A stretch of DNA of 41,064 nucleotides from Deltaproteobacteria bacterium (GTDB lineage: Bacteria > Desulfobacterota > Desulfuromonadia > Geobacterales > Pseudopelobacteraceae), in the NCBI GenBank assembly GCA_019162745.1, contig JAFLLC010000007.1:1-41064 (forward strand). The letters run 5' to 3'. The notes under the pieces are model-generated. The model had not been told where the DNA came from, did not search any database, and worked only from the letters and a program-made list of their open reading frames with translations. Each line of letters starts with the position of its first letter. The stretch's first letter is position 1. Below are positions 6,677 to 41,064 of this stretch, one piece after another. A program made the translations under genes and the position numbers.

Positions 6677-7018
6677 ATGAAATTTATTTATATGGTTTTG
6701 ATTGCGATTCTTTTTGCCGGTTGTGCCTCTCGTCCTAAATTTAATATCAATGCATCTATTCCATCTTACATCGAAGTGGACGGTGTTGTTGTTTGTGAGG
6801 CTGTGCCTTGTACGATAACACCTCCTCATTATGTATCTCCATTTGGTGATTGCCACTCAGGTGGGTCTTTGCGTTCCGTAATAGTGGCATTCCCTAAAGA
6901 CAAATCGAAGGGATTCGTTCAGCAAAAAACAATTAATGCATCGTGCAATGACGACAAAGCAGTATTTTTTGATATGGAAGTAACAGGTGGGATTCAAACT
7001 ATACCGATTAAACCATGA
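6677..7018 (+). CDS. Outer-membrane-type lipoprotein, lysogeny operon
   Basis: A 113-aa lipoprotein: basic/hydrophobic signal then lipobox LFAGC with the lipidated Cys at 16. Residue 17 is Ala, so the Lol system would send it to the outer membrane. The mature part starts with a PEGA-like segment (IPSYIEVDGVVVCEAVPC, followed by TITPP) and has four cysteines that could form disulphides. AGGAG lies seven bases before the ATG. Its TGA overlaps the integrase ATG (ATGA), so the two are translationally coupled. Prophage lipoproteins made in lysogens often block phage receptors (known examples: Llp of T5, Cor of N15-like phages); whether this one does is inference. Confidence 0.78.
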   Translation: MKFIYMVLIAILFAGCASRPKFNINASIPSYIEVDGVVVCEAVPCTITPPHYVSPFGDCHSGGSLRSVIVAFPKDKSKGFVQQKTINASCNDDKAVFFDMEVTGGIQTIPIKP

Positions 7019-8046
7019 GCGTATACACCCATCCAAACAAACCCGGCTGGCAGATGATCAAGATCTTCCACGGGAAAGAGAAGCCGGAATACATTCCGTT
7101 CCCTGGCACCAAGGAAGAAGCCCAGATCCATGAGAAGGAGTTGCGCGGGATCACTGATCGTAGCGACCCTATGTTCCTTGACAAGCTGCCCGAGTTCAAG
7201 ATTGCCTACAAGAACGAAGTCATGAGTGGGACATACGATGATTTCGGTTTCGCCTGGCTACGGATTGAGCCATTCTTCAAGAGTATGAAGATTCGCCATA
7301 TAACCCCGCTGATCATCGAGCAGTACAAAGCTTTTCGATTAAGCCAGGTGTGGAAAGGTAAGCCGATCAGCAAGCGCACCGTGAACCGTGAACTATCATA
7401 TCTCTCGAAATACCTCTTGTTTTCTGGCAGCGGCATGAAACCAGTCAAGTTCCGGAAGAAGGATTGTGCAGCTCCGCCGGCCGAACCGATGAGCATGGAT
7501 GCCATGGATGAGATTGTTGCCCTGTTGAAGTACCCGGTCAAGCAGCTGGTCCAGCTGATGGAATACAACGGGATCCGGAGGACTGAAGCATTCACGATCA
7601 AGTCCGCTGATGCCGACAAGGACGGAAAGTACATCAGGATCTGGGGGAAGGGCGGGAAGTGGCGCATTGCTCCGATAGAAGAGCCGCAACTGCAGAAGGA
7701 TATTATCGAGGCAAAGAAAGCACGTCCGGACGGTTACCTGTTTCCGAACATGCGGAAAGGTAAGTTCCACCTGCAACCCTACAAAGACATCAGAAAGACG
7801 CTGAAAGCCGCAGCAGTAAAAGCGGGGGTAACACAGCGGGTTTATAATCACCTATTCCGCCACTCATTCGCCACAGCTCTGGTGGAGGAGGGCGAGAACA
7901 TGGCGATCATCCAGGAGCTGTTGGGGCACGCAGATATCAAGCAGACAAGAGAATATACAAAAGTCACATCTAATCATACCAGAAGAGGTACAGCCAGACT
8001 AATAGACAGAAACCCCGCTATAACCGCTACAGATCAAAACCAGTGA
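7015..8046 (+). CDS. int: Tyrosine recombinase integrase
   Basis: A 343-aa tyrosine integrase. The SAM-like core-binding domain spans about residues 68-145 and the catalytic domain about 155-325. All catalytic residues are present: R188 (NGIRRTEA), K215 (GKGGK), H279 and R282 (HLFRHSFA), H305 (GHAD) and nucleophile Y314 (REYTK). The N-terminal 60 residues could be an arm-binding domain. The gene ends about 40 bp before the tRNA-Pro-like attP core, the usual arrangement for tRNA-integrating phages. It is co-transcribed with the repressor and coupled to the lipoprotein gene. No excisionase gene is recognisable in the window. Confidence 0.93.
   Translation: MSVYTHPNKPGWQMIKIFHGKEKPEYIPFPGTKEEAQIHEKELRGITDRSDPMFLDKLPEFKIAYKNEVMSGTYDDFGFAWLRIEPFFKSMKIRHITPLIIEQYKAFRLSQVWKGKPISKRTVNRELSYLSKYLLFSGSGMKPVKFRKKDCAAPPAEPMSMDAMDEIVALLKYPVKQLVQLMEYNGIRRTEAFTIKSADADKDGKYIRIWGKGGKWRIAPIEEPQLQKDIIEAKKARPDGYLFPNMRKGKFHLQPYKDIRKTLKAAAVKAGVTQRVYNHLFRHSFATALVEEGENMAIIQELLGHADIKQTREYTKVTSNHTRRGTARLIDRNPAITATDQNQ
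8013..8029 (-). repeat. Left inverted arm flanking attP
   Basis: On the minus strand this reads TAGCGGTTATAGCGGGG. It matches 8171-8188 on the plus strand except in the centre. Each arm has two TAGCGG half-sites about 10 bp apart. Being on both sides of the tRNA-like core, they are candidate integrase arm-binding sites. This copy lies in the last codons of int. Confidence 0.45.
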
Positions 8047-20163: not shown

Positions 20164-20730
20164 CTATCCCACTTTCGTGGTTGTAGTCTGCGGATTATAC
20201 ATCTTGTACGAAGCCAGTCCGACGTTTGACAAACCGCCCAGAATAGAACCGGTGGCATTCATCTGCCCTGCAGACAATGCGGCATTCCCCTGAGCTGTGG
20301 TCAAGTCGGCCTGTGCATTAAGTCCAGCGGCTTGCCGTGCGGCATTATTCCTGATCTTCAATGCGTCAAGCTCACCTTGTCCGGCGGTCTCGGTCATCAG
20401 AGACAGGTTTGTTCCAGAGTTGGGATCAAAACCGCCGGCGCCCATGATGGCATGCTGACGGGCAATCATCCGGCGGACCTCTTGCCGTTTGTCCGCGGCG
20501 TCTGCTGATCCTCTCTGATTGGCATCTAGTGCGGCACGGCGCTGCATCTCGGCATTGTAATCCGCTGTCTCTTTGGCGTTCTCTCCTGCGGCAACCTGAC
20601 CGTATGCGGCGACACCGGCACTTGCCAAACCAACGACAAGGGACGCAATGGCGATCCCTTCCCAGGTCAGAAAGAAGTTCCGGGTTGAATATAGTTCGGA
20701 CTGATAAAGGCCTGGTACTCTTCGTCTCAT
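20164..20730 (-). CDS. Internal virion/ejection protein (gp14-like)
   Basis: A 188-aa protein. A basic N-terminus is followed by a hydrophobic, small-residue-rich segment (AIASLVVGLASAGVAAYG) at about 23-40, then a long helical region with Ala/Gln/Arg and GAGGFDPNSGTNLSLM at about 90. This pattern (QAAAGENAKETADYNA-type helix after a membrane segment) is typical of T7 gp14-like proteins, which insert in the outer membrane during ejection. The ATG at 20730 is chosen because GAGGAGGT lies 7 bases upstream and it overlaps the radical SAM stop as ATGA; the frame extends 60 bp further without a site. Confidence 0.75.
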   Translation of the reverse strand: MRRRVPGLYQSELYSTRNFFLTWEGIAIASLVVGLASAGVAAYGQVAAGENAKETADYNAEMQRRAALDANQRGSADAADKRQEVRRMIARQHAIMGAGGFDPNSGTNLSLMTETAGQGELDALKIRNNAARQAAGLNAQADLTTAQGNAALSAGQMNATGSILGGLSNVGLASYKMYNPQTTTTKVG

Positions 20731-21497
20731 GCCAGTACCTCCTCGTTGTAGTATTGAGCGTATGCCACTGGGTAGAAATTGCCATCCCATGCCATGAAGA
20801 GACAGCCGGGAATGTCGTACTCCGGAGTGTACTCCTCGATAGTCGGAGCTCTCCTGAGAACAATGGCGTATCCATCCACCATCAGAACTGTTTTGCCGGG
20901 TGATTGAAAGACGATCTCTGCTTCTACTCCCAGGGAGAGAGAAACCATTTCAAGTAGATCCTCCATCTTCATTCCTGGCTGATCCGAGCGGTAGACCGTA
21001 GATATGGTGGAGGTCTGGAATACGTCCCGGTTGTTGAGGATGTATTCACATGCCAGCTGAATGTCTTCTGCCGAGTCTACCGAAAAGAGTCCGGCCATGA
21101 TCTTCAGACCACGTTTCCGGCACTCTGCCAGCAGTTCATATTTCTTAGCCACTACCCATTCAGGAAACAACGCTGGGTTGTGCACCGACATGGCTACGTC
21201 CAGAGTATCACCGGTAACAAACTCCCATATCTGATCATGCAAGGTGCCGTTGGTGATGGCGAATACTCTGTGGCCGGCATGTTCCAGCTCACGCTTTACA
21301 TCGAGGATGCGCAGACTTGTGAACGGCTCCCCGCCGGTCAACGCTATACCATGGATCGGGTGCTCTATTTTGGCGAGTGCTGCCAGAATATGGCGGGTGT
21401 TGAAGATCGGCTGCGAGGACAAGTGAGCCGCACACCACGGACAGGAAAGATTGCATGAATTGATAATCGGGACAGTTGCAAGCACCAGATGTTCCAT
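20727..21497 (-). CDS. Radical SAM enzyme within the virion gene cluster
   Basis: A 256-aa protein with the radical SAM CxxxCxxC motif at C15, C19, C22 (SCNLSCPWC), the GGEP motif at 55-58 for SAM binding, and further TIM-barrel landmarks (FAITNGTL, DVAMSVHNP). It would cleave S-adenosylmethionine to a 5'-deoxyadenosyl radical. The C-terminus has PGCLFMAWDGNFYPVA, which resembles the start of a SPASM-type motif but lacks the second cysteine, so an auxiliary cluster is doubtful. It lies between the gp13-like and gp14-like genes with 1-bp and 4-bp overlaps. No 7-deazaguanine genes accompany it, so a QueE role is unlikely. Substrate unknown; a virion protein is one possibility. Confidence 0.85.
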   Translation of the reverse strand: MEHLVLATVPIINSCNLSCPWCAAHLSSQPIFNTRHILAALAKIEHPIHGIALTGGEPFTSLRILDVKRELEHAGHRVFAITNGTLHDQIWEFVTGDTLDVAMSVHNPALFPEWVVAKKYELLAECRKRGLKIMAGLFSVDSAEDIQLACEYILNNRDVFQTSTISTVYRSDQPGMKMEDLLEMVSLSLGVEAEIVFQSPGKTVLMVDGYAIVLRRAPTIEEYTPEYDIPGCLFMAWDGNFYPVAYAQYYNEEVLA

Positions 21498-26111: not shown

Positions 26112-26558
26112 TTAAATGGCGTTCTGGTAAGCAGTCCAGACAGATGGATCAGTTGTCAGGAACGCATTGATATTGCCTGCGGTCATGGCTGCAGTGATTG
26201 TCTCCTGGACGATGCCGAGATAACGCTCGTACTGCTTACCCTGGGGGAGTTCGATAACAGCCAATATCTTGCCGGCAACCATTGCGGCCTGGAGGAACGG
26301 ACCGACTGTGCAGTGGATTGTCTGGCTGCCGTCAACAGCGATTGCCGCCTGTGCATCAGAGCAGAGGGAGAAATTGAGTGATCCGGTTGCCGATGCAATA
26401 GCGGTATCGACATTAATCACCAGATATGTACAGCCACCCGCGCCGATATCACGGCTGTTCGGTCCGAGATCCATCACATTGCCTACGAGGTACGATGCCA
26501 CTCCGCCGGTATTAACGGCAGTTGCATCACAGAATTCTGCGAGTTTATCTAAAATCAT
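26112..26558 (-). CDS. Bbp16-like capsid cement protein
   Basis: A 148-aa protein similar in pattern to the Bbp16 family of phage BPP-1, which decorates the outside of the capsid at the three-fold positions. Key strings: MILDKLAEFCDATAV at the start, DLGPNSRDIGAGG, LVINVDTA, SLNFSLCSD, and a C-terminal GKQYERYLGI segment. It directly follows the major capsid gene, as in BPP-1. AGGAG lies 7 bases before the ATG. Confidence 0.82.
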   Translation of the reverse strand: MILDKLAEFCDATAVNTGGVASYLVGNVMDLGPNSRDIGAGGCTYLVINVDTAIASATGSLNFSLCSDAQAAIAVDGSQTIHCTVGPFLQAAMVAGKILAVIELPQGKQYERYLGIVQETITAAMTAGNINAFLTTDPSVWTAYQNAI

Positions 26559-26616: not shown

Positions 26617-27741
26617 TTAGGAAACTACAGCCTCAGTCTTCAGCAAGGCATCGCAACGCTTGACCGGCACGCCGTCAAAGGCAATGACACGCTTACCCGC
26701 AACGGTGTCAGAAGTCAGTGTCGAGTTGATTGTCTTGGCTACGATCTGCTGACGGAGATACGAACGGATATCGCGACCGCAGTAGAAAACTGGGCGGCAC
26801 AGACCCATGTTCGGGATCAGCTCCAGAGCACGAGTCATGACATTGACCAGATCAGCATAACCGGCGGTACTGGCAGCGATACGGGCAATATCGATGTTGC
26901 AGATACGGACTACGTACTGCCAATCACGCACGGTCAGACCGCAATCCCATTTGTAATGAGTACGGTAACCCTGGTACTTGCCACCAGCTGCATCGATCAA
27001 AGTCTGCTCACCCAGATCCTGAGTTTTCAGACCGGCAGCGGAACCTTTGGGGTAAATACCGTGAACAGTATTGGGACCCCAGCCAACCAGCAGAATGGAA
27101 CTCTGGACGTTGGCGGAAGGGGTCGCATCGGCCTTGATGATGTTTTCGCCGTTCTGCGCGGAGGAAAGATTAAAACGAGGCATGAATCCGGTGAAGGCTT
27201 CCGGCTCGGTTCCTTCGTTGCCGTACATGAGAGTCTGAGCAAATTCCTTGTTCATGCCCTGGATGAAAGCGGTATCTTCGGAAAGACGGAAAGCGGCAGT
27301 ATTGCCGTTGAGATCGGCCAGAGACTTATCGACTTCGGCGTATGCTTCGAGCATGCCGCAGTTATCAGTGATCTGGACAGTGGTGGACTTGGAAGGCTGA
27401 ACGCCATAGTTCAACTTTCTCCAGGTTGCGTCAGGAAGACCGGAACGCACGGTGGTACGGTGGCCAGTAGGAAGGTTGCCCTCGATCCAGGTCATATCAT
27501 CGAGGACTTCGTTGGTCTCCATCAGGATTTCTGCAACCTGATCAATTCCGCCACCTGGTGCGGTGCGTTTCATTACATCGAGGAGAGTAGGGTTTGTTAC
27601 AGCCAGAGTCGTGCCGAAGGCCAGACCCATAAAGCCCAAATCACCTGCAGAGGAAAGAATGGGATGGGCCAGTACAGACCCCTCGGGAAATACGAGTACT
27701 GCGACAAACAGAATAATTGCCCAGATGCTAAAAGTTTTCAT
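26617..27741 (-). CDS. Major capsid protein with N-terminal signal peptide
   Basis: A 374-aa capsid protein of the BPP-1/GP7-like group. From residue 47 (AVTNPTLLDVMKRT) onward it follows the family: WIEGNLPTGHRTTVRSGLP, WRKLNYGVQPSKSTT, GMLEAYAEVDKSLADLNG, and FDGVPVKRCDALL near the end. In front are about 45 extra residues that read as a Sec signal: basic MK, hydrophobic WAIILFVAVLVF, and a cleavage-type VLA at 23-25 before HPIL. The ATG at 27741 has AGGAG eight bases upstream, so this N-terminus is very likely translated; an upstream GTG (27771) would merely include that site. Expected function is the HK97-fold shell. Confidence 0.88.
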   Translation of the reverse strand: MKTFSIWAIILFVAVLVFPEGSVLAHPILSSAGDLGFMGLAFGTTLAVTNPTLLDVMKRTAPGGGIDQVAEILMETNEVLDDMTWIEGNLPTGHRTTVRSGLPDATWRKLNYGVQPSKSTTVQITDNCGMLEAYAEVDKSLADLNGNTAAFRLSEDTAFIQGMNKEFAQTLMYGNEGTEPEAFTGFMPRFNLSSAQNGENIIKADATPSANVQSSILLVGWGPNTVHGIYPKGSAAGLKTQDLGEQTLIDAAGGKYQGYRTHYKWDCGLTVRDWQYVVRICNIDIARIAASTAGYADLVNVMTRALELIPNMGLCRPVFYCGRDIRSYLRQQIVAKTINSTLTSDTVAGKRVIAFDGVPVKRCDALLKTEAVVS

Positions 27742-27821
27742 TTTTGTTACTCCTTTCGCTCTTGTCTTCACGACAGTGCGGGTTGATAGTTTCGGTACTG
27801 CCTCACGGCGTTCCGTTTAGG

Positions 27822-27890: not shown

Positions 27891-28610
27891 TTATTTGTCC
27901 ATCGTTGGATACAACGATTTCAGTTTTGCCTTGTCTCCATCACCACCTGATCCGTCAGGTTGAATCACGGAGTCTTCACGCATGGCCTTGCCGATCCGGA
28001 GCATGAGGCGCACCATTTCGGGATGGTTACCCATGCCGTAATCTGATAGCGCCTGCTTGAGCTCGGGAGTGGCGAAGGTGTTGAGTGCCCTCTGCGCGAT
28101 TGCTACGTTGGCATCGTACGCAGTGCCGCCGATTTCCTTGTCTACCTTGGTTGCCTCTGCCCATGCCGTCTTGACGCCTTCCCACTTCTCCTGCTGTGCA
28201 GCAATCATCTTCGGCTGTAGATCGGTTGTCAGACGATCAAAGAGAGCCTGTGCTCCTTCTTGTGACAGGTTGAAGTCCTTGACTATCGGAGTGTATGCCT
28301 CAAAAAATCCATCAGGCATGACCGCGCCTTTAGGAACCTTGAACTCGGTGTATGCTTCCGGGGCTCCTACCAACTTGGCGGCGTCTGCAGCTTTGGCGTC
28401 TGCCTCAGCTTTGGCCTTTTCTTCTGGACTGTCTGGATCCGGATCACCAGCGGGTGGATCTGCTGCAGGTGGATCACCGGCCGGAGGATCTGCGGCAGGC
28501 GGGTCAGCTGCAGAAGGTGGATCACCAGCAGGCGGATCGCCGCCATCAACACCCATGAATATTGCCAACGGGAACAACAGTATGCTTCTCAGCATTCTAC
28601 TCATCTTCAT
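27891..28610 (-). CDS. Capsid scaffolding protein with hydrophobic N-terminus
   Basis: A 239-aa protein in the scaffold position before the capsid gene. Residues 1-22 are basic then hydrophobic (MLRSILLFPLAIFMGVDGG). Residues 23-55 are Pro/Asp repeats (DPPAGDPP and DPPAADPP). Residues 60-80 are Lys/Ala/Glu helix, and the rest (FKVPKGAVMPDGFFEAYTP; KMIAAQQEKWEGVKTAWAE; helical C-terminus) matches phage scaffold-like proteins. AGGAG lies before the ATG at 28610, and no better start lies after the hydrophobic part, so that segment is probably real. It overlaps the Bbp19-like gene by 14 bp. Scaffolds normally are soluble and have no such N-terminus. Confidence 0.75.
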   Translation of the reverse strand: MKMSRMLRSILLFPLAIFMGVDGGDPPAGDPPSAADPPAADPPAGDPPAADPPAGDPDPDSPEEKAKAEADAKAADAAKLVGAPEAYTEFKVPKGAVMPDGFFEAYTPIVKDFNLSQEGAQALFDRLTTDLQPKMIAAQQEKWEGVKTAWAEATKVDKEIGGTAYDANVAIAQRALNTFATPELKQALSDYGMGNHPEMVRLMLRIGKAMREDSVIQPDGSGGDGDKAKLKSLYPTMDK

Positions 28611-28917: not shown

Positions 28918-30090
28918 TTATAACCATGAAATATTGGCATATCCGTACAACACGGTAACAGTCACCGCATACGTGGCAGCCACCGTGTCATTGTTTTTGA
29001 TACTCATTACCTGATTCACTCCACCTGTATTGACAAGATCGAAGGCAGTCCCACCAGACCCACCCAGATAGCTTGATCTGTCTATTGGGGTATAAGTCTT
29101 GCCAGCAGAGTAACCGACAGGAGCGATCAGATATACCGATTCAGAATAACCTCCCGACCCTGTAGTTGCATAGATCGATACAAGCATGGAGGCAGGTACA
29201 GCGTATCCATCCACAGAAAAGATGTTGACCGAAGCAGCTGCAGCCACAGCAGATTTGGTGAATACCTTAGAAGTAACTTCCTTGATGGTGGCAGTACCTA
29301 TTGAGAACGCTTGAGATGCAGCTCCAGCCAGCAGAGCTCTTGCAGTGCTGTCCACAGCATTAATGGTAATTGCCGCGCTACCATCGAAATTGACTCCGTT
29401 GATTGCCCGTGGTGTTGTCAGCTTGGCGGCACTTCCGGTGGTATTCTGGTTCAAATAAAGAGTATCGAAGTAGGTTTTTAATACAGACTTAACGTAAGCC
29501 CAGGTCATCTTATGAAGCAAACCACCTGTATGATTACGCATTGCAATGGTATCCGTTTCATCAGGAGCAGTAATTGCAGTAGCGCCGTTAATCAAAGCGC
29601 CGATAGTAGTAGCTGTTTCAGCTGGTGCAGAGGATAAAGCCACCGAAGCAAAGTCGGTTACGTTCGCCGCGGTATGATTGTGAACCACTGGAGTCCGTGA
29701 GTCCGATAACCTGGCATCATTGCCTACACAAGCAGTTGAACCTGTTGTGCCAAACCCAGGGAATGTGACAGTAGACGCTGCAGCGTAAAGAGTATCGAAA
29801 TATACCTTGAGCGTTGCCTTGATATTCGTCCAGGACAGCTTTCTGATCTTATTGCTATCAGCTGTGTCCATGACCGGAATCATATCTGCGTCAATCGGTG
29901 TCGTTTTTTCTACAGCGCCTAAGACTAGGACACCAACAGAGACAACGGTTTCTTTGTCGGACTCCGGAGCGTGAATATTACTGTGGTTATAGGCAGCCTC
30001 ATGCCGTTGCAATTCAATTGAATACGCCTTTGCATCCAGTTTTTGGACTTCCGGCAAACTCGATTGAGGAATGTTCTGACCTTTAATCAT
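28918..30090 (-). CDS. Fibre-like structural protein
   Basis: A 390-aa protein rich in Thr/Ala/Ser/Gly. It contains two related modules, KIRKLSWTNIKATLKVYFDTLY at about 81-102 (quoted in parts: KIRKLSWTNI, LKVYFDTLY) and LHKMTWAYVK with LKTYFDTLY at about 195-215, each after an Asp/Thr segment. AAKLTTPRAINGVNFDGSA at about 225 is a common tail-fibre repeat. The C-terminal 120 residues are beta-rich. It starts by TGATG overlap with the portal gene. The place between portal and scaffold suggests a head fibre or an unusually placed tail fibre. Confidence 0.7.
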   Translation of the reverse strand: MIKGQNIPQSSLPEVQKLDAKAYSIELQRHEAAYNHSNIHAPESDKETVVSVGVLVLGAVEKTTPIDADMIPVMDTADSNKIRKLSWTNIKATLKVYFDTLYAAASTVTFPGFGTTGSTACVGNDARLSDSRTPVVHNHTAANVTDFASVALSSAPAETATTIGALINGATAITAPDETDTIAMRNHTGGLLHKMTWAYVKSVLKTYFDTLYLNQNTTGSAAKLTTPRAINGVNFDGSAAITINAVDSTARALLAGAASQAFSIGTATIKEVTSKVFTKSAVAAAASVNIFSVDGYAVPASMLVSIYATTGSGGYSESVYLIAPVGYSAGKTYTPIDRSSYLGGSGGTAFDLVNTGGVNQVMSIKNNDTVAATYAVTVTVLYGYANISWL

Positions 30091-31763
30091 CAGGCAGCTC
30101 CCAACATACGTGCAAGTGCAGTTGTTTCTCCGACAGGAGTGTCAGATAGGGTTTTTGCGGCAGTTGCAGCCTGATTCCAAGAAGGTGCCGCTTCCAAATA
30201 CTTCTGCTGTTGTGCTGCAGCAGCTTTTGCTTCCCTGATCCCCATGACCTCATCTTCCGATCGGAGCATGTTCGGCGGAGTGCCATGCATGTTGGCATAG
30301 CCATCAATGGTGTTATCCACGTTCAGCTTGTCGGCAGCATCGGTGAACCCGAGACTTAACAGATTACCCACGAATCCGACCACTCGCTCGACTGAGTTAG
30401 TGCCGATCAGCTTCTGAGCCTGAGCCATGATCGAGGTGTATTCAACCTTGATCGCCTGGCCTTCGAGTTCCTTCGGCGGACGTGGTATCTTACCCATGCG
30501 CATCATGATGTTGTACGTCCGGTCAATTGATGGATCGTACAGTTCGCCATTCATGCGCTCAAGGAAGGGGCCGAGGATCAGCAGTTTCTCCTGGTGGCGC
30601 TCGTCAACTTCCCGGGCGGTTACATTCGGATTGTCGCTATTGGCAAACATCAGCATCAGGTCTTCATAGTACGCACGCTTGATGCGGTACTCGATTTCCT
30701 TGATGTCCTGCCCGACGTACTGAATACCGCCGTGGTTGACTTCATAGGCAGGACGAAACCCGGCGTGCTGTTGTGCAGCCAGATTGTCGATGTAAGTTAC
30801 CCCGCCCGGCACCATGGAAGTCCCAGTGGTACGCAGCGTGGAATCTGCCAGCATCGGCGGGCGTGCGGCTTTGTCAATCAATTCCGCCTTGCGCTTCTCT
30901 TCGAGCTGCAGCTGCTTGACATCTCCCAGAGCCTGCATACCACAGGAATAACCGTAGACATCCTCAGCCTCAACATCCCATCGAGGTACCTGGAGCGGGA
31001 ATTCATCGTATCCGGACTCACGCAGCATCTTGTTGTTCTCGTTACTGCCGAGCTCGTAATAGACAGACCGGAATTTCTTGTCCTTGCTGTTGAGCTTGGT
31101 AACGTCACGATCAGCATTCGGCTCGATGAAGTGAACGACTTCGACAGTGGCCTCATACTTGTTGGTGTCATACAAATTCTTGACGGTAGTGGAAACATTG
31201 TCGATACCGAACTTCCTAACCAGATTACGCACGGTCATCGGAAATTCACGGCACCAGGTGTCTACCTTGCCCTTCTCATTCAGGGCGACCATGTAGGAGC
31301 CGACAGGGTAGGGATAACAGCGGATCGTCTCTTCATCGTCCTCTTCGATCAGTTGGGCGCCTGTTCCGTAGGAACCCAGAGCGCCGTAAACCATCGGGAG
31401 AGAGTTGTAGAAATTGGACTTGGTGAAGACCTCACGCATTGCTGATTCAACCTCGAACAACCAGGCTTTAACGGCAGCGGACTTCATGAACTGCTCACCA
31501 ACTGACAACTTGAACCAGGGACGAGCTGGAGAAGACGCGCCGGCCATCATGCCGGACTTGAATGTTCTCTGGCTTACGGTAGCGGTATTGTTGATAATTG
31601 AACCGTAAGACTTTGCACCCTTCGAGGTGACGGTGGTCAGGTATCGGGCAGTACGAGGGGAAATGAAAGAAGTGATCTCCGCCCAGTGGGGAAGGAACGA
31701 AGACCGCTCATTCTTCATCTGTGCTCTGCGGCACTCTAGTTTTTCGCGTAATGTTTCAGCCAT
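30090..31763 (-). CDS. Portal protein (head-to-tail connector, podovirus type)
   Basis: A 557-aa protein of the T7-like head-tail connector family (PF12236 type), normal in length. Diagnostic segments: WAEITSFISPRTARY at the start, FKSGMMAGASSPARPWF, LPMVYGALGSYGTG, REFPMTVRNLVRKFG, YGYSCGMQALGDVKQLQ, and ANVTAREV-like NVTAREVDERHQEKLLILGP in parts. It forms the twelve-fold DNA channel and is the docking site for terminase. AGGAG precedes the ATG. Confidence 0.92.
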   Translation of the reverse strand: MAETLREKLECRRAQMKNERSSFLPHWAEITSFISPRTARYLTTVTSKGAKSYGSIINNTATVSQRTFKSGMMAGASSPARPWFKLSVGEQFMKSAAVKAWLFEVESAMREVFTKSNFYNSLPMVYGALGSYGTGAQLIEEDDEETIRCYPYPVGSYMVALNEKGKVDTWCREFPMTVRNLVRKFGIDNVSTTVKNLYDTNKYEATVEVVHFIEPNADRDVTKLNSKDKKFRSVYYELGSNENNKMLRESGYDEFPLQVPRWDVEAEDVYGYSCGMQALGDVKQLQLEEKRKAELIDKAARPPMLADSTLRTTGTSMVPGGVTYIDNLAAQQHAGFRPAYEVNHGGIQYVGQDIKEIEYRIKRAYYEDLMLMFANSDNPNVTAREVDERHQEKLLILGPFLERMNGELYDPSIDRTYNIMMRMGKIPRPPKELEGQAIKVEYTSIMAQAQKLIGTNSVERVVGFVGNLLSLGFTDAADKLNVDNTIDGYANMHGTPPNMLRSEDEVMGIREAKAAAAQQQKYLEAAPSWNQAATAAKTLSDTPVGETTALARMLGAA

Positions 31764-31797: not shown

Positions 31798-32037
31798 CTA
31801 CGCGCCCAAAAGCGTCTTGGTTGTAGTCGGAGCCGTACCGGTTACACCGTTCGGGCCGGTCAGGATGGTGTTGCTTGCCGCGGATCGTCTCCGCATACGT
31901 TCGGCATCTCTCGACGCGGTTACTCCGGCATCCTGTTGTTCAGGTGGAGGCGGTGCAGCTGGAGGAAGTGAAGGAGCTCCGCCGCCACCGCATCCAAGAA
32001 CCGGCATCAACAATATGGAAAGGATAAATCGAAACAT
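31798..32037 (-). CDS. Small lipoprotein-like head protein
   Basis: A 79-aa protein between terL and portal. The start MFRFILSILLMPVLGC carries a lipobox (VLGC, Cys at 16), then Gly and Pro runs, a basic helix (RDAERMRRRSAASN), and ILTGPNGVTGTAPTTTKTLLGA. The last two-thirds look like small proteins that podoviruses encode at this position (helical Arg/Ala part ending in TxLTG and TLLG), which usually have no signal. GGAGGT lies five bases before the ATG, so the lipobox start is strongly supported. Confidence 0.72.
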   Translation of the reverse strand: MFRFILSILLMPVLGCGGGGAPSLPPAAPPPPEQQDAGVTASRDAERMRRRSAASNTILTGPNGVTGTAPTTTKTLLGA

Positions 32038-40794: not shown

Positions 40795-41064
40795 TGCTGA
40801 CACTCCACAAACTCACCATCGGAATTCAGCGTGTACCAGATATCAGCTTTGATACCGTTGTCGCCAACTTTGCTTGCCCTGATATGAATGAGCTTGCCCT
40901 CGTTGTCTCTGTAGACACAAACGATTGCTCCGCTCTCTGACGACTTCGATCTGCCCTCATAACCAAAAGCGGCAGCTACTCCGTCCGATCCTGAGTTGCT
41001 GGCAGCGCCGTAATCGCCTGAGTTGCTGGCAGCGCCGTAATCGCCTGAGTTGCTGGCAGCGCCT
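40791..41064 (-). CDS. DUF7666-type repeat protein, C-terminal part
   Basis: This is the continuation of the gene that starts at 501. The bases at 41016-41064 duplicate 1-49, so only 41015-40791 is unique here (74 codons plus stop). It carries one more GAASNSGDY unit, a degenerate last unit, then a non-repeat domain with GAIVCVYRDNEGKLIHIRAS and a tail ending DGEFVECQQ, followed by TGA at 40793-40791. That stop overlaps the helicase ATG (ATGA). Homologous proteins, as I recall them, also end with such a globular tail after the repeats. The intact frame across the junction is the best evidence that the genome is circular and correctly closed. Confidence 0.8.
   Translation of the reverse strand, partial: GAASNSGDYGAASNSGDYGAASNSGSDGVAAAFGYEGRSKSSESGAIVCVYRDNEGKLIHIRASKVGDNGIKADIWYTLNSDGEFVECQQ
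41016..41064. repeat. 49-bp terminal direct repeat (identical to 1-49)
   Basis: The last 49 bases are identical to the first 49. This is most simply the overlap of a circular assembly, because removing one copy joins the two halves of a coding frame exactly. A true terminal repeat of a linear virion DNA cannot be excluded from sequence, but 49 bp lying inside a gene and inside a tandem array argues against it. Confidence 0.85.

Follow-up and report, generated by a model that had tools for sequence, protein, structure and literature searches.

Shells with the HK97 fold are textbook cytoplasmic assemblies, and the locus studied here raises the question of why the major capsid protein (MCP) of a tailed phage would begin with a segment that resembles a secretion signal. 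The MCP gene lies on the minus strand of the window, by which we mean the whole 41,064-nt stretch of DNA analysed, and comprises the following parts:

26617..27741, minus strand: MCP gene of the GP7 (epsilon15/BPP-1) family, 374 aa plus stop, ATG start (PF20911, phrog_212, 3j4u)
27750..27755, minus strand: Shine-Dalgarno (SD) site AAGGAG, 8 nt upstream of the MCP ATG (sequence, SD scans)
27667..27741, minus strand: MCP residues 1-25, signal-peptide-like leader consisting of MK, a hydrophobic core and GSVLA, with HPIL next (profile matches)
27616..27666, minus strand: MCP residues 26-42, Lys/Arg-free linker and beginning of a second, short hydrophobic stretch, the ancestral start position being residue 43
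26620..27615, minus strand: MCP residues 43-374, capsid body common to leaderless relatives

The window MCP matched Pfam PF20911 (GP7; E 9e-134, 445.7 bits against a cut-off of 27, residues 62-373), phrog_212 (E 2e-88) and the BPP-1 capsid chain 3j4u (E 4e-136, alignment from residue 45). Relative to the usual GP7 family start it had 42 extra N-terminal residues, with the positive n-region and the hydrophobic core by which signal-like N-termini were called (a crude Sec rule; starts were picked by SD score). The first-pass annotation had described a signal-type segment ahead of the family start, with the start fixed by an SD site. The comparison bore out both claims: the 42-residue addition appears to have Sec-type anatomy, and the strong AAGGAG precedes the leader ATG. 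A weak internal start remains: the ATG of residue 38 is in frame, lies five residues ahead of the ancestral start and has a 4-nt SD match at spacing 12, and a second, short and minor product from it is possible. No further copy of the MCP gene turned up in the window's genome. The AlphaFold model of the MCP (14 sequences) was poor (mean pLDDT 46) and was set aside. The window ends (1-49 and 41016-41064) were identical over 49 nt, inside a 27-nt tandem repeat, and the genome is likely circular. A phage integrase gene (7015-8046; PF00589, E 6e-25) indicates that the phage is probably temperate, and a radical SAM gene (20727-21497) lay between the gene of a T7 gp14-like internal virion protein and tail genes.

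A search of related capsid proteins for the extension, as proposed with the first-pass annotation, found a signal-like leader (at least 30 residues ahead of the anchor) on 12 of 170 distinct GP7 MCPs; the sets of loci were capped, or ranked by how much they resembled leader-bearing queries (80 loci in each viral scan, 26 in the genome scan), so that frequencies in these sets are not prevalences. The carriers were the window, L003, L015, L046, L058, L063, L069, L075, L077, L159, L272 (a Hydrogenophaga MAG) and L274 (the isolate Herminiimonas contaminans). The leader was kept in L003, 69% identical to the window (41 codons, dN 0.38, dS 0.74). Leaderless GP7 MCPs began at the ancestral position in 152 of 158 cases, and the SD match was 4 nt or longer in 155 of the 158. 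The segment had been expected to lose its meaning if homologs lacked it while their start sites shifted; homologs did lack it (158/170), but the pattern was that of a cassette gained or lost behind one SD site, and not of a shifting start. No leader was found in the annotation of six cultured phages and one plasmid record, and the leader query matched no cultured phage. In a tblastn of the phage collection, the alignments of the GP7 relatives among the matches listed started no earlier than query residue 39, with the exception of eight weak partial matches; they show no resemblance to this leader, and a different leader there is possible. Single-protein and D-type leader scans of viral contigs returned known carriers only. 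Limnohabitans phage DC33 (L518, PQ492659) is filed under Inoviridae, yet its 39-kb record encodes an epsilon15-type MCP.

Closely related pairs located the insertion. The MCP bodies of L069 and L074 were 94% identical in protein, and their DNA was alike through the SD site, after which L069 had 45 extra codons directly ahead of the ancestral ATG and L074 had none. The layout was the same in L270 and the leaderless L301 (85% identical). Between L075 and L077, 2 synonymous changes were counted in 329 body codons, against approximately 16 synonymous plus 33 nonsynonymous changes in 42 leader codons, and the DNA was identical for more than 2.7 kb downstream; either recombination replaced the leader, or the two phages recombined at that site. 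The leader shared by L305 and L306 had a dN of 0.11 and a dS of 0.92. On body-only trees, leader state changed 10 times for 12 leaders with GP7 (168 rows; well-supported branches force at least six changes), 6 times for 7 leaders with gpT (74 rows; six forced) and 6 times for 9 leaders with gpE (40 rows; four forced); the trees were quick, some branches were long, and gain and loss were indistinguishable. As far as sequence comparison goes, the leader on MCPs is real, recurrent and modular, and it is very probably an exchangeable, Sec-signal-like segment of about 45 residues that follows the SD site and continues in frame into the ancestral start.

The leader was also common to unrelated MCP families, a point absent from the first-pass annotation. 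When 76 genomes of the host family were searched with the window MCP, residues 2-42 alone were matched in a genome of the same genus (G413), in an ORF that was a lambda gpE-type MCP (PF03864, E 2e-66) adjoining gpD-like and S49-peptidase genes; its viral relatives included leader-bearing and leaderless members. PF03864 was over cut-off in 8 of the 76 genomes, and three of these MCPs, all from the window's genus, had a leader. Among fetched loci, a leader was borne by 8 of the 40 MCPs of lambda gpE type and by 7 of the 76 of Mu gpT type. The rule had picked out 10 of the 40 gpE-type MCPs, of which L338 and L341 lacked an extension and were not counted; L313 (extension, no SD start) was counted in the gpE tree only. 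In the window's host family, HK97-type MCPs (PF05065) had no leader in any of the eight N-termini viewed. This, and the presence in G435 of a GP7 MCP without leader beside a gpT MCP with one, led to rejection of a simple host requirement for the leader.

A profile of nine gpE leaders, run against 2089 distinct N-termini, matched L003 (E 2e-8) and the window (E 2e-7), the next, non-leader, sequence being at 0.03; with L270, a sequence found through the window leader, taken out of the profile, L003 was at 2e-8 and the window at 2.8e-7. A joint profile (A3) gave four strong matches in the 76 family genomes, all MCPs of the window's genus, and the fifth (E 0.0055) was a Mu gpT-type MCP. Over 277 genomes of the class (up to 24 candidates scored per genome), A3 matched in 11 genomes at E ≤ 0.005, ten times an MCP start and once (G436) an exported-looking protein. 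Four of the ten MCP starts were profile rows and L491 looked the same as row L311; the new matches were L492 and L496 (gpE) and L493 and L494 (gpT, E 1e-7 and 8e-6), which were Pfam-confirmed, and a fragment, L495, assigned by eye. Group profiles linked the A leaders of GP7 with gpE group E1 (1e-10), E1 with E2 (7e-7), E2 with the GP7 leader of L015 (8e-4) and E1 with the gpT leader of L399 (4e-5). For the D and C leaders, and for most leaders of gpT MCPs on viral contigs, these profiles gave no firm link, and such leaders may be independent. Because the gpE profile finds the window leader, and related leaders occur on gpT, the linked leaders form one module family shuffled among MCP families.

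Leader anatomy was compared across 30 leader-bearing MCPs (27 from the three family sets plus L318, L354 and L355). The length added ahead of the ancestral start was 42-48 residues in 27 of the 30, and 37, 49 and 55 in the other three. Lys and Arg made up 15 of 972 residues (1.5%) between core and body as opposed to 979 of 9308 (10.5%) in the bodies (binomial p 7e-29, with rows not independent), Asp and Glu made up 61 of the 972, and the first 35 residues of leaderless MCPs had 8-13% Lys/Arg. This scarcity of Lys/Arg after the core gives the leaders a positive-inside pattern. The second hydrophobic stretch was short, with Kyte-Doolittle means of 1.74, 2.19 and 2.14 in leader-bearing MCPs and 0.73, 0.43 and 0.92 in leaderless relatives, and it was weakest in the Burkholderiales-type leaders (D group). 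High-scoring A-x-A-type sites were present in 26 of 30 leaders, but shuffles of the same residues equalled the score in 12-93% of draws, so that real leaders did not outperform their shuffled versions. In the alignment of a broader profile (A4), Ala at window residue 25 was invariant (16/16 rows, partly picked by likeness). Over 395 genomes of the phylum (up to 17 candidates scored per genome), A4 matched the window plus 15 others, 11 of which resolved, by look, to ordinary exported or membrane proteins (protein names being our own reading). Since A4 also matches ordinary-looking exported and membrane proteins of the phylum, the leader reads as a Sec signal.

Signal-like N-termini were present on three head-module genes of the window, namely the terL-portal, scaffold-position and MCP genes. 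The head genes next to the MCP were:

27891..28610, minus strand: scaffold-position gene, phrog_458 (labelled protease), 239 aa, hydrophobic N-terminus MKMSRMLRSILLFPLAIF
31798..32037, minus strand: small terL-portal protein, phrog_831, 79 aa, lipoprotein-like signal ending VLG-C
26112..26558, minus strand: cement protein, Bbp16 family, no N-terminal extension
30090..31763, minus strand: portal (Head-tail_con)

The scaffold-position gene is named endoprotease in one database record and is a candidate protease by that label. Relatives of the terL-portal protein in the host family begin Met-Cys-Gly, so that the extra residues of the window protein create its lipobox-like VLG-C. Proteins like phrog_831 between terL and portal often begin Met-Cys without a signal (L482, L484, L485, L278, L279, L286, L051, L086), and some other terL-portal proteins have a hydrophobic N-terminus (L068, L164, L273). 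Hydrophobic scaffold N-termini were found in 3 of 12 leader-bearing GP7 loci (the window, L003 and the L015 group) as compared with 3 of 158 leaderless loci (L263, L264, L265; Fisher p 0.005), a link confounded by lineage, as L263, L264 and L265 come from the family of the window's host and the six loci seem partly of one host lineage. The earlier proposal that the scaffold and the terL-portal lipoprotein imply membrane-linked head assembly thus stood in part: both window proteins have hydrophobic N-termini absent in relatives, which fits, but among the 12 leader-bearing GP7 loci just three have a hydrophobic scaffold N-terminus.

In the surroundings of the MCP, signal-like ORFs were commoner at leader-bearing than at leaderless loci for GP7 (7 of 55 and 14 of 817) and for gpE (9 of 65 and 5 of 214), with no clear excess for gpT (1/37 and 5/408); many were lysis-type or unrelated genes. 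Small genes with clear signal peptides followed the MCP in L015 (4683-5301), L355 (downstream), L263 (downstream) and L075 (3589-4302). In L481 (4884-7349), a GP7 phage of the window host's family, and in L263, the terL-portal, scaffold, MCP and cement proteins all had short N-terminal additions. Three of these additions end alike (AAAILTT, GAAILTT, AGAIITT), and the motif was also on the scaffold and MCP of L112; the pattern was defined post hoc, and the 5 of 2979 N-termini that match it are all in L481 and L112. In L043 (2123-3602), the MCP and cement protein share a basic, non-hydrophobic N-terminal addition (QVFKTA and KVFKTT). Within one phage, the likeness of MCP N-termini to neighbouring N-termini was in no excess over the null.

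For the role of the leader, we tentatively propose that it brings the MCP to the membrane transiently, for assembly of the head, and put this at somewhat short of an even chance. The leader would send newly made MCP to the inner membrane; the MCP would stay there, anchored by an N-terminal arm inserted in the membrane, during prohead formation on scaffold and portal-side proteins that are themselves linked to the membrane. The arm would then be cut off, with signal peptidase (at the Ala-rich site) or a phage protease as possible agents, and the head would be freed for DNA packaging. According to the BPP-1 report, the shell displays the N- and C-terminus of the MCP on its outside, and the cement protein is the partner of the N-terminal loop (PMC3863775). 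With the N-terminus on the outside of the shell, an arm could reach the membrane and a tether would be sterically possible. T4 heads are reported to be initiated at the inner membrane, on its cytoplasmic side, via the portal and YidC and to leave after proteolysis, and those of SPN3US do likewise (PMC9026906). It is from this precedent, together with the position of the BPP-1 N-terminus, that we infer, by analogy, a transient membrane tag. The presence of leaders on three MCP families with cross-family profile matches, and the hydrophobic scaffold N-termini with the lipoprotein-like terL-portal protein, speak for a membrane role, as do the constant added length, the positive-inside pattern and the Sec-like A4 matches; the assembly without a leader of the cultured relatives examined speaks against it, and so do the result with shuffled A-x-A sites, the lineage confounding of the scaffold link and the two kinds of MCP in G435. 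Topology poses a further difficulty. From the positive n-region and the Lys/Arg-free linker, the residues that follow the core are predicted to be periplasmic; the capsid body would then end up across the membrane from the cytoplasm if the chain did not cross back at the second hydrophobic stretch. This stretch may bring the chain back to the cytoplasm, insertion may be abortive, or some MCP may be exported.

That the real or main product begins near residues 38-45, the upstream frame being untranslated or only partly translated, is very improbable. The residue-38 ATG and its weak SD match in the window would allow it, as would L003 ATGs at 43 and 44 with 4-nt matches, and the ancestral ATG was kept in some phages (the L069/L074 pair); of the 27 leader-bearing MCPs, five had some internal start whose SD match reached 4 nt and 22 had none. 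The strong SD site, however, precedes the leader, L069 and L074 share it with the leader inserted behind, synonymous changes prevail in the L305/L306 leader, and a cross-family profile match at constant length means that the leader must be translated. By SD placement, cassette insertion and cross-family match, a wrong start was largely rejected, and the weak residue-38 start remains. True export, in which some or all of the MCP would leave the cytoplasm for a non-structural task and be cleaved by signal peptidase, is unlikely, as the body is still that of a shell that packages DNA in the cytoplasm, MCPs with and without leader can have almost the same body, and, with no second MCP copy found in the window genome, virions must be made from the same gene. 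The signal anatomy, the Lys/Arg-free linker and the likeness to leaders of exported host proteins nonetheless agree with export, and so does the invariant Ala at window residue 25, tempered by the partial selection of A4 rows by likeness.

Constant length across three families would be expected if the leader were an assembly arm without membrane insertion, packing in or on the shell or pairing with the scaffold as a small covalent scaffold, and the MCP and scaffold of L481 and L112 share their short N-terminal motif. This reading is improbable: virions would be sticky if a hydrophobic arm lay outside the shell, the charges are distributed as in a translocated segment, and the delta domains of HK97-type phages are not known to be signal-like. 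Host defences that sense the MCP are known, and the leader could instead be a conflict-driven cassette, swapped under selection, that hides nascent MCP from such defences or burdens host Sec late in infection. Frequent gain or loss on the GP7, gpT and gpE trees, divergence of leaders far faster than that of bodies, and the one pair with a swapped leader are consistent with it. We consider it quite unlikely, given that no defence or stress gene was tied to the leader and that rapid divergence would also be expected where signal peptides are under loose sequence constraint. Transient membrane targeting can be joined to the modular pattern in a wider and somewhat more doubtful proposal, a mobile capsid leader of tailed phages: a signal-peptide module that might be swapped by recombination among non-homologous HK97-fold MCP families and might take the MCP, and in some phages also the scaffold, portal-side and cement proteins, to the membrane, where whole heads would form.

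A literature search on capsid proteins with a signal peptide or N-terminal extension, with subscription papers and preprints outside its scope, turned up, among the papers listed, none describing a tailed phage whose MCP has a signal peptide. A cassette-like signal peptide on the most abundant virion protein, in three MCP families, makes membrane head assembly directly testable, and natural pairs with and without leader, such as L069 and L074, suit such tests. Gene callers and structural work may trim or miss such leaders.

Among known systems, the coat protein pVIII of filamentous phages has a signal peptide and enters the membrane before assembly. Its fold is unrelated to that of leader-bearing MCPs, and filamentous virions are extruded with no preformed head. 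In T4 the membrane link is that of the portal with YidC, and the part of the T4 and SPN3US source available describes no signal peptide on either MCP, so that their likeness to the leader phages is by analogy only. BPP-1/epsilon15-type MCPs (GP7; 3j4u, 3j40) align with the body of the window MCP end to end, and cement, portal and Bbp19-like neighbours come in like order; unlike the window MCP, that of BPP-1 has no leader, with 331 residues by its CDS, and is reported not to be truncated in the virion. With bacterial Sec signal peptides the leader shares a positive start, a hydrophobic core, an Ala-rich end and profile overlap with likely exported host proteins. It differs from ordinary Sec signals in having a constant-length linker and a second hydrophobic stretch after the core, and in being fused to an HK97-fold shell protein.
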